Shown here piece by piece: positions 11,408-49,018 of a stretch of DNA of 64,000 nucleotides. This DNA comes from Asticcacaulis sp. AND118 (GTDB lineage: Bacteria > Pseudomonadota > Alphaproteobacteria > Caulobacterales > Caulobacteraceae): positions 1,464,501 to 1,528,500 of the forward strand of contig NZ_CP084910.1 in NCBI RefSeq assembly GCF_020535245.1, given 5' to 3'. The notes under the pieces were generated by a model. It was not told the origin of the DNA and searched no databases. It was given only the letters and a program-made list of their open reading frames with translations. Within the stretch, counting starts at the first letter, position 1; every line of letters begins with the position of its first letter. A program made the position numbers and the translations under genes.

Positions 11408-11525
11408 GGGGTGTGGGGCCTGCGGCCCCGCAAGCCTTTTTACTTTCAACAGAAAAGCCTGCCGGATTTTCCGTCAGGCTTTTCTTTTGAATATAGAAGA
11501 CGTGGGGTCACGGACCCCACACCCC
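11408..11525. repeat. Inverted pair of family D repeats around a terminator, copy 1
   Basis: Left arm ggggtgtggggcctgcggcc (from 11408) and right arm gtggggtcacggaccccaca (from 11502) are imperfect inverse copies. The aspS terminator lies between them. The same arrangement, with the same sequence ggcctgcggcccc, recurs at 41887-41994 between the AsmA-like gene and tyrS. Confidence 0.75.
11453..11484. terminator. Intrinsic terminator downstream of aspS
   Basis: Stem aaaagcctg / caggctttt with loop ccggattttccgt, followed by cttttg on the plus strand. The A-run on the other side makes it usable for the convergent pentapeptide gene too. Confidence 0.85.
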
Positions 11526-11533
11526 ATAACTTG

Positions 11534-12019
11534 TCAGCACACCGGGACGCGGATGCCGCGCGGCGGGACGGTCGTCTTGTCGCCGCAGGCCTGATCCATC
11601 ATGCTTTGCGTAATGCCGCGCGCCGAGCCCATTTCCGCGCCCGAAAAATTGACGCCGTGCAGGGTCGCACCGGCGAAGTTCGCGCCTTCGAGATACGCGC
11701 CGACAAAGGTCGCATTGGTCAGGTTGGCGCGCGAGAAGTTGGCATTGCCGAACAAAGAGCCGAAACCGTTCAGGTCGCGCAGGTCGCCGCCGGCAAAGCT
11801 GGTGCGGTTGAACACGCCGGTCGACAGGTCGGCCTGACGCAGGCGCGCCCCGGCAAAGTTCTTGCCGGTCAGGGTCTTGCCGGAGAAGTCGGCCTGAAAC
11901 AGGTTGCAGCCGGGGCAGGACGCGCCCGAACCCGCGCGGTCGATCTGAACGGGATTCTGCGCCGAAGCGGGAAGGGCGAACAGCGAAAGCGCGGCCACAG
12001 CCAGAGCGATGCGTTTCAT
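11534..12019 (-). CDS. Secreted pentapeptide-repeat protein
   Basis: 161 residues. A signal peptide (MKRIALAVAALSLFALPASAQ, residues 1-21) is followed by two cysteines (SCPGCNLFQ) and a run of about twelve five-residue repeats of the A(D/N)Lxx / A(N/R)FxG type (FSGKTL, FAGARL, RQADLS, FAGGDL, SRANLT, YLEGANF, FSGAEM). Such repeats fold as a right-handed beta-helix; the molecular role is unknown. A C-terminal CGDKTTVPPRGIRVPVC adds two cysteines that may pair with others in the periplasm. The ATG at 12019 has a good ribosome site (gaggtg). The frame is open to 12223 but the longer version reads through repeat sequence. It is convergent with aspS and divergent from asd. Confidence 0.85.
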   Translation of the reverse strand: MKRIALAVAALSLFALPASAQNPVQIDRAGSGASCPGCNLFQADFSGKTLTGKNFAGARLRQADLSTGVFNRTSFAGGDLRDLNGFGSLFGNANFSRANLTNATFVGAYLEGANFAGATLHGVNFSGAEMGSARGITQSMMDQACGDKTTVPPRGIRVPVC

Positions 12020-12091
12020 GATGGGACACCTCTGTTGGTTTGGCCTTCTCAAAGCAAGATCGGGGCCTGTGGCGCGTTGCGACAATTTCTC

Positions 12092-12267
12092 ATACCTCCC
12101 CAACTTGTTGGGGAGGGGGACCGCACGAGCCAGCCGATAGGCTGGGGAGATGTGGTGGTGGGGTATCTTCGGATATCTCCACCTGCAAAGTCTGCTGAAA
12201 TTCACTAAGGCCCCCACCACCACGCCCTTCGGGCGCGGTCCCCCTCCCCAGTGAACCGGGGAGGTAT
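12092..12267. repeat. Palindromic element family B, copy 1 (upstream of asd)
   Basis: 176 bases bounded by the inverted ends atacctcccc / ggggaggtat. Inside are aggggGaccgc(acgag) and its inverse gcggtccccct. The core ggggtatcttcggatatctcc...gcaaagtctg...attca matches copy 2 at 13560-13744 closely. There is no coding capacity for a transposase. The right end runs straight into a TATAAT (12265-12270). Confidence 0.85.
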
Positions 12268-12270
12268 AAT
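12265..12270 (+). promoter_or_regulatory. Possible -10 box for the asd leader
   Basis: An exact TATAAT hexamer 43 bases before the leader-peptide ATG. No TTGACA-like -35 is seen 17 bases upstream, where the sequence is the C-rich end of the repeat. So the promoter call is tentative and partly formed by repeat DNA. Confidence 0.35.
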
Positions 12271-12312
12271 AAGCGGTTTACAAATCCCCTCTTTGCCGCT
12301 AAAGGCGGTTTC

Positions 12313-12393
12313 ATGTCCATGATGACCGCCATTAAAGCCACTACCAAGCCGACCCGCTGCCGCGGGGCCGGTCTGGTTGTGCTGACGGTTTGA
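12313..12393 (+). CDS. Putative leader peptide of asd (26 residues)
   Basis: ATG at 12313 with aaaggcgg about 6 bases upstream opens a 26-codon frame ending in TGA at 12391-12393. The peptide MSMMTAIKATTKPTRCRGAG plus LVVLTV contains 5 Thr, 3 Met, 2 Lys and 1 Ile: eleven of 26 residues belong to the aspartate family made downstream of Asd. The densest regulatory codons (ACT ACC AAG CCG ACC, 12340-12354) sit in the 5' arm of a predicted hairpin. No function other than translation-controlled attenuation is proposed. Shorter starts at 12319 or 12322 are possible. Confidence 0.7.
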   Translation: MSMMTAIKATTKPTRCRGAGLVVLTV

Positions 12394-12442
12394 CGCCTTA
12401 AGCCACTGGACGAAGCCCCGCGGATGCGCGGGGCACGGTTTT
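12343..12442 (+). promoter_or_regulatory. Predicted transcription attenuator upstream of asd
   Basis: Four RNA segments are visible. Segment 1 (12343-12357, accaagccgacccgc) pairs imperfectly with segment 2 (12362-12377), starting with a perfect GCGGG/CCCGC stem. Part of segment 2, ccgcggggc (12360-12368), is perfectly complementary over 9 bases to segment 3, gccccgcgg (12415-12423). Segment 3 also pairs with segment 4, cgcggggc (12427-12434), forming an 8-bp GC hairpin with a four-base loop followed by acggtttt. The 1:2/3:4 versus 2:3 choice is the classic attenuation layout. Stalling at Thr codons in segment 1 would free segment 2 and prevent the terminator. Confidence 0.7.
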
Positions 12443-12495
12443 ACAGAAAACCCGACACCTCGCGCCTCCTCGCTCAAAACCGGAGACGTGACCCT

Positions 12496-13551
12496 ATGAA
12501 CGACCAATCCCATTATACGCAGTTTCCCAATGTGGGGATAGTTGGCGCCACCGGCCTTGTCGGCGGCATGATGCTGTCCATCCTGGCCGAACGCGCCTTT
12601 CCGCTGAACAAGTTGCGCCTGTTCGCCTCCAGCCGTTCGGCGGGCAACCGCGTGACCTTTGGCGACCGTGAGATCGTGGTGGAGGACGCTTCCGCCGCCG
12701 ACTATAGCGGGCTCGACATCGTCTTCTTCTCGGCGGGCGGCTCGACCTCGAAGGCGCTGGCGGAAAAGGTCGCGCAGGCCGGGGCCGTCGTCATCGATAA
12801 CTCGTCGGCCTGGCGCAGCGACCCCGACGTGCCGCTGGTCGTGGCCGAGGTCAATCCGCACGCCCTGAAGCATACGCCCAGGGGCATCGTCGCCAACCCC
12901 AACTGCACCACCATGGCCGCCATGCCGGTCCTCAAGCCGCTGCACGAGGCGGCAGGCCTGAAGCGCCTGATCGCCAGCACCTATCAGGCGGTGTCGGGCG
13001 GCGGCATCGAAGGCGTCGAAATCCTGCGCGATCAGATCGTCGCGGGTGCGGACGGTTGCGCGGCTCTGGCGCAGAACGGCGATAGCGTGGACCTCGGCGC
13101 CGTGCGCAAGTGGACCGTGCCGATCGCCTATAATGTCGTGCCGCTCAACTACGTGCGGGGTGAAGACGGCTATACCGAGGAAGAACTGAAACTGCGCGAC
13201 GAGAGCCGCAAGATCCTTGAAATCCCTGAACTGGCCGTGTCGGCGACCTGCGTGCGCGTGCCCGTGTTTACGGGGCACTCGCTGTCGATGAATGTCGAGT
13301 TCGAGCGTCCGCTTTCGGTCGAGACGGCGCTGGAACTGCTGGGCAATGCGCCGGGCGTCGAGATCAGCGAAGTGCCCAATCCGCTGACGGCGGCGGGCAA
13401 GGATCAGGTCTTCGTCGGCCGCGTCCGCCGCGACCCGACCGTGGCGCACGGCCTGACCCTGTTCGTGAGCGGCGACAACCTGCGCAAGGGCGCGGCGCTC
13501 AATGCCGTGCAGATCGCCGAAGAATGGCTGAAGCAGAAGGCGTGGGCGTAA
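12496..13551 (+). CDS. asd: Aspartate-semialdehyde dehydrogenase
   Basis: NADPH-dependent reduction of aspartyl phosphate to aspartate semialdehyde, the branch point to Lys/diaminopimelate, Thr, Met and Ile. 351 residues, near the family norm. Rossmann start NVGIVGATGLVGGMML; catalytic Cys137 in IVANPNCTTMAAMP; substrate-binding YQAVSGGGIEGVE; catalytic His in VPVFTGHSLSMNVEF. ATG at 12496 (MNDQSHYTQFPN). An upstream in-frame ATG at 12424 lies inside the attenuator hairpin and is rejected. The gene is preceded by a leader peptide and terminator-like hairpin rich in Thr/Met/Lys/Ile codons, which suggests feedback by end-product charging. It is flanked by two copies of repeat family B. Confidence 0.97.
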   Translation: MNDQSHYTQFPNVGIVGATGLVGGMMLSILAERAFPLNKLRLFASSRSAGNRVTFGDREIVVEDASAADYSGLDIVFFSAGGSTSKALAEKVAQAGAVVIDNSSAWRSDPDVPLVVAEVNPHALKHTPRGIVANPNCTTMAAMPVLKPLHEAAGLKRLIASTYQAVSGGGIEGVEILRDQIVAGADGCAALAQNGDSVDLGAVRKWTVPIAYNVVPLNYVRGEDGYTEEELKLRDESRKILEIPELAVSATCVRVPVFTGHSLSMNVEFERPLSVETALELLGNAPGVEISEVPNPLTAAGKDQVFVGRVRRDPTVAHGLTLFVSGDNLRKGAALNAVQIAEEWLKQKAWA

Positions 13552-13559
13552 ATCCTATC

Positions 13560-13744
13560 ATACCTCCCCGCCTTTGGCGGGGAGGGGGACCGCACGAGCC
13601 GAAGGCGAGGTGCGGGGGTGGGGTATCTTGCGAAATTTCCACCGGCAAAGTGTGTTGGCATTCAGTAAGAACCCCCACCCCCACATCTTACTTGCCTTTG
13701 GCAAGCTCGTGCGGTCCCCCTCCCCATCGGAGATGGGGAGGTAT
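13560..13744. repeat. Palindromic element family B, copy 2 (downstream of asd)
   Basis: 185 bases with the same inverted ends (atacctcccc / ggggaggtat) as copy 1 at 12092-12267, and the same core ggggtatcttgcgaaatttcc...gcaaagtgtg...attca. It starts 8 bases after the asd stop and ends 7 bases before the stop of the convergent NrdJ-like gene, so it fills the whole spacer and may act as its terminator. Confidence 0.85.
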
Positions 13745-13750
13745 GATTTG

Positions 13751-16519
13751 TTACTCCCCCTGCGCTTCGGGCGGGAAGTCCTTTTCGTCGCTTCTGGGCG
13801 TCTTGCGCGCGAAGGGCACGACGACCAGATTGTCCGGCTGACCGCGCATGAAGCCCTTGGAGATAAGCTGCGAGGCGGCGATGCCTTCGTTTTCGCCGTC
13901 GGCCAGTTTGGAGAGCCCATGCCCCTGACCCAGACCGTCGGCGTTCAGTTCGTCCGGGTCGGCGTTCGACAGGTCGTCGCGGTTGAGGTACGAGATCGCC
14001 AGCTCACGGAAGATATAGTCGAGGATCGAGGTCGCCGAGCGGATCGAATCGTTGCCGGCGACCGGGCCGGCGGGTTCGAAGCGCGTGAAGACGAAGGCGT
14101 CGACAAATTCATCCAGCGGTACGCCGTATTGCAGCCCGATCGACACGGCGATGGCGAAATTGTTCATCAGCGAGCGGAAGGCCGCGCCTTCCTTGTGCAT
14201 GTCGATGAAGATTTCACCCACCGAGCCGTCGTCATATTCGCCGGTGTGCAGATAGACCTTATGGCCGCCGACGCTGGCCTTCTGGATATAGCCCTTGCGG
14301 CGGTCGGGCAGCTTTTGGCGCTCGCGGTCGCGTTCGACGATCTTCTCAATCACAGTCTGCGCCGGGGTTTCGCGAACCGGCTCCGGAGCGGGGCGGCGGG
14401 CCTCATCGAACTCCGGAATCTCCAGCGTCAGGGACGGCGGAGCGGGCTGGCGCTTGAGACCAAGGACGCGCAGACCGCTTTCCGCCGCCTGAGCCATTAG
14501 TTTCAGCGCGTCGGGCACGCCCTGATCCCAGTCGAGCACGATCGGCGCGGCGGCGGGGGCCGAGGCGAAGCTTTCCAGCTTCTGCCGCAGCGCCAGGCGC
14601 GCCTTTAGCCCCGGCGCGGCAAGGCGTTGACGCAAGGCGTCGGGCAGGCCCGTCGTGTCGTCGCGGCCGAAAACAAAGGCGTCGGCCTCGCTGATTTCGG
14701 CGGTCGTGAAGCCCATCAGGCTCAACAGGCTGAAGCCCGGCGCGTGCAGGTCTTCGTCGCTGACGCCCCAGATATCCTTGATGAAATCGGCATCGAGAAC
14801 CGCAGGCGACACCACGGCTTCGAGGCCGGAGGCAGTGATCAGCGCGGCCTCGATGGCGGCGATTTCGAAATCGCTCAGGCCCCTGGCTTTCAGCGTCTGG
14901 GCATGGATATGCGGCGCGCCGTCCAGCGTGCGATGCCCCAGCAGGTGCGTGCGCACGGCGTCGCGGTCTTCGCCGCTCAGGCCTTGCCACACGGCGGGGT
15001 GCAGGCCGCGCACGAAGACGCCGTCGGCGCCTTCCATGGCTACGGTCAGGGCGGTCAGCGGCGCGTCGCCCAGCGTTACGCCCAGTCGCAGCGACAGGTC
15101 CGGATCGCTGAACAGGGTGGTCGTCTGCACGTGGCGCAGGCCGGTGGCCTTGGCCAGTTTCAGCGCTGCCTGCAACCGCGTCAGGGCCTGCGCCTTCAGG
15201 CCGGCGCTCTTGAGGCCCGACAGGCGGTAGAGCTTCTGGCTGAGGGCCGAGATGCGCGCGTCGCGCTCGGCTTTGAAACCGGCATAGGGCGTCAGGTGAC
15301 GCGACAGGACGGCGGAGGCGTGGACGCTTTCGGCGTCGAGCACGGCCATCACGGCGGCGGCGAAGTCCAGCCCGTTTTCCGCCTGTGCGCTCAGGCCCAA
15401 GGCCAGAAGAGTCTCGCTCAAACCGGCGACGTTCAGGCCCAGCGGACGGTGGTGGGCGATACGTCGGGCGGCTTCGGGCGTGGCGGCGAAGGCGAGGTGG
15501 CTTTCGATGTCCAGCGCCACTGTCCACAGGGCGGCGCAGGCGGCAAAGCTGTCGATGTCGAAACCGGTGTCGCCGACAAAACCATAGACGTTCAGCGCGG
15601 CGCGCGGCGCGATCAGGGCGTCGTCCAGCGCCTCGGCGGCGTCCGGATCGAAGGCCAGCCACAGGCGGCCGCTTTCCAACGCCGTCTGCGCCGCCAGCCG
15701 ACCGGAAGGATCGCCGGCGGCTATAAGGTCGCGGCGCGCGGTCACGACAACCGGCGTGGCCGGGTGCTCTGGTTCGACGGTCTGCAGCGACCAGTCGGGC
15801 AGGGCGCTGTCGCCGGTCAGGCCGTCGGCGGACTGGATCACCGACTGGATCAGGGCGTCGGAGGCCCCCAGACGGCGGGCCTTCAGCGCGGCGCGGGCCA
15901 GGGCCGGATTGTGTTGCAGGCTGGCGCGCTGTTCGCCCTCGGCACGTGCGATGGCGGCGGCGATACCGGACAGGGCGGCGTGCAACTGATCGCGGGTGGC
16001 GCGGGCGACGGCTTCGGAGCGCGCCCCGACCAGCAGGTCGCGCAATTCGCGCACGCAGGCGTGGTCTTCGATATCGGCGTAGCGGGCTTCGGCCGGGGCG
16101 GCCTTGGGCGCGTCCAGCAGCGGCAGGCGATGCCCGGTCTTCAGCGTCGTCGCGGGCGCGGCCAGGCCCAGCCGCAGGGTGGCGGCCAGTTCGGCGGCAA
16201 AGGCCTGTGCTTCGGATTCCGCCAGTATGCCCAGCACGCGGCCCCACGCGGCGAGGCGATGGGCGTAGAGGTCGAAGGCGCCGTCGAGTCCTTCGGCGAC
16301 CGGCGGAAACGCCCCTTCGGGCAGGTCGCGCGGCAGGGCCTCGACCCAGTCGTACCAGGCTTCGGTCTGAGCCGTCGTCCAGTCGCGAGGGCACAGGACG
16401 GAGAAGGTTTCCGGGCCGCGCTCGATCTCGCGCCATTCATGCAGGGTGTTGGCGATTTCCGCGCGCGCGGCGAAGGACAGGTCGGGCAGGACAGAATCGC
16501 CAGTCATTATCTTTCCCAT
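13751..16519 (-). CDS. NrdJ-like (class II ribonucleotide reductase family) protein, apparently non-catalytic
   Basis: 922 residues. The C-terminal part is plainly NrdJ-like: [40 protein letters not shown], then [20 protein letters not shown] and [20 protein letters not shown]. The rest follows the NrdJ order but is diverged: [20 protein letters not shown] (NrdJ-type LARA...IQRVIQ), then [10 protein letters not shown] where active enzymes have ACNLASLNLL, then [38 protein letters not shown] and [20 protein letters not shown]. Only three cysteines occur in the whole protein, none in the active-site contexts (CGE, ACN), and the C-terminal CxxC tail is absent. I therefore infer a pseudoenzyme or regulator. 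Start is ATG at 16519 or 16507 ([10 protein letters not shown]), both with purine-rich ribosome sites. Confidence 0.75.
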
Positions 16520-16604
16520 TCGCTTCCCCCGGCTTCGGATGTCGCGACGCGTTCGCCTGTCAGACGACTGCCTCAGCGATCTGGGGATAAAGCCTAGCCT
16601 GATT

Positions 16605-16612
16605 TTAACCAT
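16605..16612 (+). promoter_or_regulatory. Possible CtrA half-site
   Basis: The octamer ttaaccat, the half-site recognised by the cell-cycle regulator CtrA in Caulobacter, lies in the spacer between the divergent NrdJ-like and NDUFA12 genes. A single octamer is weak evidence. Confidence 0.25.
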
Positions 16613-48883: not shown

Positions 48884-49018
48884 CTCCTCCCTACGCCTTG
48901 GCGTGGGGAGGGGGACCGCGAAGCGGTGGAGGGGGATACCTCCGCCCGTGCTACCCCCCTCCGTCATTTCGCTATCGCTCAATGCCACCTCCCCATCGCT
49001 GACGCGACAGGGAGGAGA
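48884..49018. repeat. Family C palindromic repeat inside the suf operon
   Basis: Left ctcctccctacgccttggcg and gggagggggaccgc...gtggaggggg; right ccccctccgtcatttcgcta...ccacctccccatcgc...agggaggag, its inverse. Same family as 4631-4831 but without a terminator in the middle. It sits in the sufB-sufC spacer and can fold in the mRNA. Confidence 0.75.

Follow-up and report, generated by a model that had tools for sequence, protein, structure and literature searches.

An upstream ORF and six-segment RNA cascade before a second asd gene of Asticcacaulis: a probable leader-peptide switch of translation

Leader-peptide attenuation, Thr leaders included, is well known, and the usual textbook picture of amino acid attenuation is one of transcription ending prematurely. 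In Escherichia coli, for example, the leader of the thr operon (Rfam Thr_leader) controls thrABC via an intrinsic terminator. The locus described here lies upstream of asd (aspartate-semialdehyde dehydrogenase) in Asticcacaulis sp. AND118, within a stretch of 64,000 nucleotides (contig NZ_CP084910.1, positions 1,464,501 to 1,528,500, forward strand), referred to as the window. Like the E. coli thr leader, the asd leader has a peptide with Thr and Ile codons, competing 1:2, 2:3 and 3:4 pairings and an aspartate-family gene; unlike it, it also has Lys codons and a predicted Shine-Dalgarno hairpin, and the gene is a different one. The erm and cat translational attenuators depend on antibiotic-induced stalling and, unlike the asd leader, have no amino acid specificity. 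What they have in common with our model for asd is that stalling on the leader releases a Shine-Dalgarno sequence otherwise held in a hairpin (for ermC, a passage of PMC2965389). In mycobacteria, cysteine-responsive leaderless short ORFs control translation of the downstream gene (Canestrari et al. 2020, as reported in a passage of the review PMC9031893). In both, as proposed for asd, the amino-acid codons of a short, leaderless ORF govern translation downstream; the mycobacterial ORFs differ in the amino acid (cysteine) and in belonging to Actinobacteria, and the PMC9031893 passage describes no hairpin cascade. The LEU element upstream of leuA, also from Actinobacteria, differs from the asd leader in being a pseudoknot, with the run of Leu codons and the Shine-Dalgarno box paired to each other directly in its base stem (from a passage of PMC1262725). 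Finally, the ilvBN attenuator of Caulobacter crescentus, with tandem Ile and Val codons (from a passage of PMC4117421), resembles the asd leader as a leader peptide attenuator of the same family. At ilvB loci in six genomes of this family the hairpin is followed by U6, i.e. transcription attenuation, whereas the asd leader is without a U-tract.

Rfam Thr_leader is unmatched in window positions 11500-13500 up to E 1 and in 12 related loci up to E 0.1, and no Rfam family matches the asd leader at a meaningful level in either set. The initial annotation, made from the letters of the window, had suggested that a leader in front of asd may be undescribed; the open-access literature searched yielded no account of a leader peptide before asd in Alphaproteobacteria. 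What appears to be new is such a leader switch for asd in Alphaproteobacteria; leader-peptide attenuation and leaderless translational read-out are already known.

We consider it fairly probable that the locus works by ribosome-mediated attenuation acting mainly on asd translation, through a leaderless or nearly leaderless ORF and a cascade of six RNA segments. The elements are as follows:

12277..12305, + strand: putative promoter, -35 TTTACA (12277-12282), 17-nt spacer, -10 TAAAGG (12300-12305)
12313..12393, + strand: leader ORF, 26 codons, rich in Thr, Met, Lys and Ile, probably leaderless or nearly so
12353..12357, + strand: segment 1, pairs with 12362-12366
12360..12368, + strand: segment 2, pairs with 1 or 3
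12415..12423, + strand: segment 3, pairs with 2 or 4
12426..12434, + strand: segment 4, pairs with 3 or 5; U-tract absent 3' of it
12437..12452, + strand: putative small hairpin GGTTTT-ACAG-AAAACC (by eye), between 4 and 5, takes up the T run
12458..12469, + strand: segment 5; CCTCGCGC (12458-12465) complements segment 4 and GCGCCTCC (12462-12469) complements the asd Shine-Dalgarno region
12482..12489, + strand: segment 6, asd Shine-Dalgarno region GGAGACGT, predicted to be sequestered by segment 5
12496..13551, + strand: asd, coding for aspartate-semialdehyde dehydrogenase (scores exceed the cut-offs of NCBIfam NF011456 and TIGR01296); a second, divergent paralog

An asd match was found in 196/199 family genomes. 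The window-type asd or a close relative (67-89% identical) is present in 56/196, the window's included, and the next matches, at about 50%, represent another copy. In 55/56 of these loci the upstream region is readable; the 56th, in genome G121, is cut off by the contig edge, and another contig of this genome carries a leader at its own edge. An ORF of 23-26 codons starting with ATG or GTG lies upstream of asd in 55/55 readable relatives, with 46 distinct peptide sequences among the 55 loci. The small ORF, whose lack of conservation had been named as grounds for abandoning an attenuator, is therefore kept throughout, and a short upstream ORF rich in end-product codons, as expected of a ribosome-mediated attenuator, can be read from the sequence in 55/55 relatives. 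In the window, the peptide of the ORF at 12313-12393 is MSMMTAIKATTKPTRCRGAGLVVLTV, and its translation agrees with the 5 Thr, 3 Met, 2 Lys and 1 Ile in 26 codons that had been counted before.

Compared with Asd proteins, the 55 leaders are enriched 4.6-fold in Thr, 1.9-fold in Lys, 1.8-fold in Met and 1.3-fold in Ile. The earlier proposal that the codons correspond to the amino acids made via Asd thus holds well, for Thr above all, then for Lys, Met and Ile. Cys (2.3-fold), Arg (1.8-fold) and Gly (1.4-fold) are also raised, and Asp and Glu are nearly absent. Lys is encoded by 89 AAA and 16 AAG codons in the leaders and by 8 AAA and 169 AAG in 16 asd genes; Ile is encoded by 64 ATT and 24 ATC in the leaders and by 10 ATT and 191 ATC in the same genes. 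A Lys-(Thr/Pro)-Thr core stands immediately 5' of segment 1 in most rows of the alignment, L010, L011 and L023 being without the Lys. In five relatives (L003-L007) a one-base deletion has shifted the frame of the peptide tail after the control codons. Because only the part past the control codons is altered, the codons would seem to matter rather than a functional peptide. The raised Arg, Cys and Gly would also be consistent with a non-regulatory role, i.e. a small ORF that is translated and hairpins rich in GC that persist for other reasons, such as mRNA stability or a small protein. We regard this as very improbable, given the Thr enrichment, the frame-shifted tail of L003-L007, which argues against a protein function of that tail, and two observations presented below, the coevolution of the alternative helices and a codon content that tracks the downstream gene (His for hisS, Thr for thrS).

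The putative promoter is as regular as the ORF. All 55 relatives have a TT(T/G)-type -35, a 17-nt spacer (16-18 nt were tried and 17 was best) and a TA-type -10. The distance from the end of the -10 to the leader start codon is 6 nt at 1 locus, 7 nt at 17, 8 nt at 33 and 9 nt at 4. Since the -10 is only 6-9 nt before the start codon, the leader is expected to be leaderless or nearly so, and from this conserved promoter-like geometry a transcription start at or beside the leader ATG is predicted. A scan with an E. coli-type consensus reported no promoter at 12277-12305.

Segments 2 and 3 are exact 9-base complements (12360-12368 and 12415-12423), as originally noted, and segment 2 is complementary to segment 3 in 55/55 relatives. 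As read from the sequence, hairpin 3:4 consists of 12415-12421 paired with 12428-12434. The initial annotation had also placed the Thr codons under a 1:2 hairpin. For the core (12353-12357 with 12362-12366) this is correct for one Thr codon; the others are reached only in the minimum-energy fold, in which the hairpin is extended over the preceding Thr and Lys codons. When the leader RNA was folded, as had been proposed, positions 12290-12450 (161 nt) gave -70.8 kcal/mol vs a shuffled mean of -56.3 (z -3.55), and 0/200 dinucleotide shuffles folded as well. Mutually exclusive pairings with control codons at or before segment 1, another mark of an attenuator, are thus predicted by the models. Segments 5 and 6 had been overlooked; judging from the aligned loci, they are conserved and lead to the asd Shine-Dalgarno sequence, which makes translation initiation the likelier output. 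The stem of the small hairpin (12437-12442 with 12447-12452) can absorb the U's after 3:4, and differently spelled hairpins occupy the position between 4 and 5 in several relatives (both by eye).

We infer the following cycle, from promoter position and ribosome stalling to the effect on translation and any effect of Rho. RNA polymerase would start at or next to the leader ATG, and the leader ORF would be read from a message with no, or almost no, 5' untranslated region. With Thr and Lys (and Ile, Met) tRNAs charged, the ribosome would clear the control codons, and 1:2 and 3:4 would form. Segment 5 would then be free to fold back on the Shine-Dalgarno sequence (5:6), and asd would be poorly translated; Rho-dependent transcript loss may perhaps add to this OFF state. 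With amino acids short, the ribosome would stall at the Lys/Thr codons just 5' of segment 1 and cover it. In this case 2:3 would pair, segment 4 would be released to pair with 5, and the Shine-Dalgarno sequence would become easier to open.

The initial annotation was of a classic transcription attenuator with 3:4 as a GC terminator. Its leader-peptide part stands, as the codons, the ORF and the 2:3 complementarity are conserved; its terminator part finds no support, since U-tracts are present in 0/55 loci and segments 5 and 6 reach the Shine-Dalgarno sequence. In the window only 4/8 nucleotides following 3:4 are U (ACGGTTTT), and the terminator scan of the window did not call this hairpin. The U-tract is missing in 55/55 relatives: the 8 nt 3' of 3:4 contain 0-4 U (median 2), and 0/55 have at least 5. 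Hairpin 3:4 is therefore probably no intrinsic terminator in the asd leaders of the window's family. For comparison, ilvB in 6/8 family genomes has a hairpin followed by TTTTTTCTTTT (U6), all six belonging to genus g22, to which Caulobacter is assigned by matching contigs; an ilvB attenuator was found in none of the other 2/8, and no ilvB leader was recognised in the window's own genus. In sister families, 4/6 loci have U5-U6 after the ilvB hairpin.

Asd leaders with U-tracts after 3:4 do occur elsewhere in Alphaproteobacteria, with 7 U in 8 at L142, L225, L227, L198 and L207 and 6 at L226 and L127 (counts for L139, L155, L128, L239, L241, L222 and L223 were not used, as they refer to a hairpin other than 3:4). 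In some other alphaproteobacterial families the output of such leaders, with a true U-tract, is thus probably transcriptional or both. These loci with 6-7 U in 8, together with the conserved competition of 2:3 and 3:4, are what one would expect from classical transcription attenuation, in which 3:4 is an intrinsic terminator, 2:3 the antiterminator and 5:6 incidental. For the window, with its 4/8 U, we think this reading unlikely: no locus among the 55 has at least 5 U in 8, the scan calls no terminator at 3:4, the ilvB attenuator of six family genomes does have the U6 run, and 5:6 and 4:5 coevolve across families, as shown below. Even less likely, in our view, is a dual output combining weak or Rho-dependent termination, tied to lost asd translation, with Shine-Dalgarno occlusion. 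Three loci, L139, L140 and L142, have by eye both a U-rich stretch after 3:4 and a Shine-Dalgarno hairpin (at L142 at the start codon, with 7 U in 8), but the window sequence itself gives no sign of termination at 3:4.

None of the 55 readable loci is without segment 2, hairpin 3:4 or the elements downstream of them. Segment 5 is conserved as YYYCGCG(C)CTCC, and the Shine-Dalgarno region as GGAGACG(C/T), with a loop of varying length. Covariation within the family was measured on 52/55 rows, three near-copies being excluded. Pairing is kept in 96% of cells for segment 1 (two-sided change in three rows at one pair), 99.3% for 4:5 and 94.1% for 5:6 (changes mostly one-sided in the latter two), and with TTTC/GGAAA both sides have changed in L008 and L009. 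Within the family the covariation is weak, as most pairs are invariant and the ON-state score was reached by 44/500 shuffles. Across families, the arms have new spellings, noted by eye: GCATCTC/GAGATGC at L139, GTCTCTC/GAGAGAC at L124 and GTCTCC/GGAGAC at L127. Loci of the Hyphomonas type show joint changes in segments 2 to 5 (GCGGGACG, CGTCCCGC, GCGGGACG and TCCCGC in that order, also by eye).

An arm-swap test compared own partners with partners swapped between groups (18 representatives, 10 groups, 1000 draws; the groups are partly dependent, as f1, its third-group rows and f39 share letters). The own-minus-swapped difference was -2.0 kcal/mol for 2:3, -2.9 for 3:4, -2.4 for 4:5 and -3.0 for 5:6, and was non-negative in 6, 0, 2 and 0 of 1000 draws, respectively. 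The control pairs gave no clear own-partner preference across the 10 groups: 2:5 -0.6, 3:6 +0.6, 2:6 0.0, 4:6 -0.3 and 3:5 +0.7, non-negative in 227, 954, 480, 256 and 906 of 1000 draws. Letter-shuffled arms averaged -0.15 to -0.37 for the four helices and reached the real mean difference 94 (2:3), 13 (3:4), 31 (4:5) and 4 (5:6) times in 1000. Composition therefore explains part of the signal, most of it for 2:3, which taken alone is weak. In the stretch tested, L142 lacks a 5:6 pairing. A later test took 8/11 leader-bearing loci (L263, L268 and L271 were left out) and gave, for own vs mismatched partners, -19.8 vs -16.1 kcal/mol for 4:5, -12.4 vs -10.6 for 5:6 and -19.5 vs -17.6 for 2:3; for 3:4, over a shorter stretch, there was no difference (-15.3 vs -15.1). 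In the Novosphingobium-type loci L265 and L266 both 4:5 and 5:6 are maintained with new letters. By these comparisons of arms, the four alternative helices 2:3, 3:4, 4:5 and 5:6 coevolve across families. The conserved codons and segments that had been expected from an upstream alignment are thus there; the compensatory changes are few within the family, and it is across families that own partners are preferred.

Folding models of the switch states agree with the translational cascade in part. With modelled stalls, the probability of 2:3 is 0.82-0.95 at A-site codons 6-13, and 3:4 prevails from codon 14; in free RNA the mean probabilities are 0.67 for 2:3 and 0.33 for 3:4. As 2:3 is favoured both in free RNA and with stalls from codon 6, the OFF state would depend on kinetics. 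At codons 11-13, 4:5 is highest (0.60-0.68; free 0.35) and 5:6 is low (0.33-0.47; free 0.67). In the window RNA, a ribosome blocked at codons 12-13 is predicted to replace 3:4 (1.0) by 2:3 (1.0) and 4:5. The mean unpaired probability of the Shine-Dalgarno sequence hardly rises with modelled stalls (0.16 free, 0.17 at codons 11-13); in the window RNA it goes from 0.20 to 0.49 with a stall at codon 13. The rise is so slight because the inner CTCC:GGAG pairs can remain; they persist with a probability of 0.61 in the ON state. When 2:3 was forced in silico instead of 3:4, P(4:5) rose to a mean of 0.83 from 0.00, and the outer arm of 5:6 dropped in probability from 0.80 to 0.15 (reduced in 53/55). 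The mean cost of opening the Shine-Dalgarno sequence went from 8.4 to 5.9 kcal/mol, being lower in 49/55 rows (window, 7.8 to 3.6) and not lowered in 6/55; L048 forms no 4:5. Plain folding gave no extra masking over the 55 rows, the Shine-Dalgarno sequence being unpaired at 0.30 vs 0.32 with shuffled upstream sequence, and accessibility was in the lowest 10% of shuffles for 6/55 rows and for 2/17 in other families. Masking by single-sequence folding was no better than shuffles and was dropped as support. Taken together, plain folding supports a translational output only partially.

In a tree of 54 Asd proteins (rooted for drawing only) there are three deep groups; the window's group and the third group stand behind the leader, and the ubiquitous copy is without it. 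The asd at 12496-13551 is by this placement the second paralog, a point that had gone unnoticed. At the ubiquitous copy 0/14 loci match the leader model, and three positive loci did match. The window-type asd is present in 12/25 listed genomes of the window's genus. Two genomes without it, G006 and G039, have a clearly similar leader (E 2e-20 and 1e-16) before a third-group asd, and leader and gene therefore seem to have been re-combined in evolution.

Relatives of the leader occur in Hyphomonas, Sphingomonadales and other Alphaproteobacteria. Under strict filters the leader model matches in 44/299 genomes of the order sample and 11/385 of a class sample. Among asd loci inspected in a class sample, 10/49 have an accepted leader (29 loci returned as such and 20 fetched; L198, below the Thr count, was added by eye). 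L216 and L230 were rejected as leaders, as the ORF sits at the end of the upstream gene. The best 80 of 591 named relatives of the window's asd comprise 24 Alphaproteobacteria, one 'bacterium' and 55 Actinobacteria, with Asticcacaulis at 84-89%. The leader model matches 20 of these best 80, all within the first 25; at L258 a leader is present, although the model missed it. Outside the family, the ORF search found no leader at L250, L255, L257, L261, L196, L197 and L199. Among the same best 80 of 591, the closest relatives outside Alphaproteobacteria are from Actinobacteria, 63-68% identical, and none of the 55 actinobacterial loci (L269, L270, L272-L324) match the leader model. The sequence relationship suggests asd transfer between Alphaproteobacteria and Actinobacteria.

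Related leaders are also found before other genes. Among 24 model matches inspected, asd is the downstream gene in 17. Three of the remaining seven were kept, L133 (dapA), L135/L155 (hisS; one locus, read twice) and L128 (thrS), and L134, L130, L143 and L129 were rejected for lack of fitting codons or of a plausible gene. Of the weak matches, which also included L156, L159, L162, L163 and one place in genome G074, six were inspected (L157, L158, L160, L161, L164 and L165) and all six were rejected. The dapA leader (L133:1570-1727, G074) is MSAAVANTAKKPSRLPGHGW... with a CGTCTCC/GGAGACG Shine-Dalgarno hairpin. The thrS leader (L128:1474-1654, G769) has five consecutive Thr codons and, by eye, a U-rich stretch after the hairpin. 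An ORF rich in His (up to seven) is found upstream of hisS in 9/30 family genomes (L169, L171, L174, L176, L177, L181, L183, L188 and L189); a tenth flagged region among the 30, L187, was rejected by inspection, and three genomes of the window's genus have no His leader before hisS. All nine have a hairpin cascade like that of the asd leader, with a 4:5 pairing spelled GGATGG/CCATCC or GGACGG/CCGTCC, and only 2-3 of the 8 nt that follow the stem are U. Own partners have a slight advantage over swapped ones (4:5, -19.1 vs -17.4; 5:6, -13.8 vs -12.8). On the minus strand of L155:1430-1584, opposite the hisS leader, Rfam CC3513 (a Caulobacter sRNA) scores 39.1 bits with a gathering threshold of 40; this sRNA may be related to the hisS leader.

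With His codons before hisS and Thr codons before thrS, codon content follows the downstream gene. It is tempting, although still short of an even bet, to see here a general codon-swappable class in Caulobacterales and other Alphaproteobacteria. In such a class a leaderless ORF and a six-segment cascade would pass on to the Shine-Dalgarno sequence where a ribosome has stalled, so that translation rather than transcription termination would read the amino acid supply, with Thr/Lys/Ile for asd, His for hisS and possibly Lys/Thr for dapA, and with the same leader kept before deeply different asd genes. Within one family the sensing part would be joined to a ribosome-binding-site hairpin and no terminator, and some relatives keep a terminator; asd leaders with and without it may form a natural series for how one output became the other. 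The proposed control would act on asd, the branch point of Lys, Thr, Met, Ile and the cell-wall precursor DAP, and would cover Caulobacterales and some Hyphomonas and Sphingomonadales relatives.

Two further features of the window are recorded. A GC-rich repeat, GGGCGCGGTCCCCCTCCCCA, occurs four times with at most 3 mismatches (12109-12128, 12231-12250, 13707-13726 and 48904-48923; expected 0.07), and its copies flank asd on both sides. Positions 13751-16612 on the minus strand encode a 953-aa protein that matches vitamin B12-dependent ribonucleotide reductase in stretches only (381.5 bits vs a family cut-off of 1737) and is shorter than the 1222-position model.
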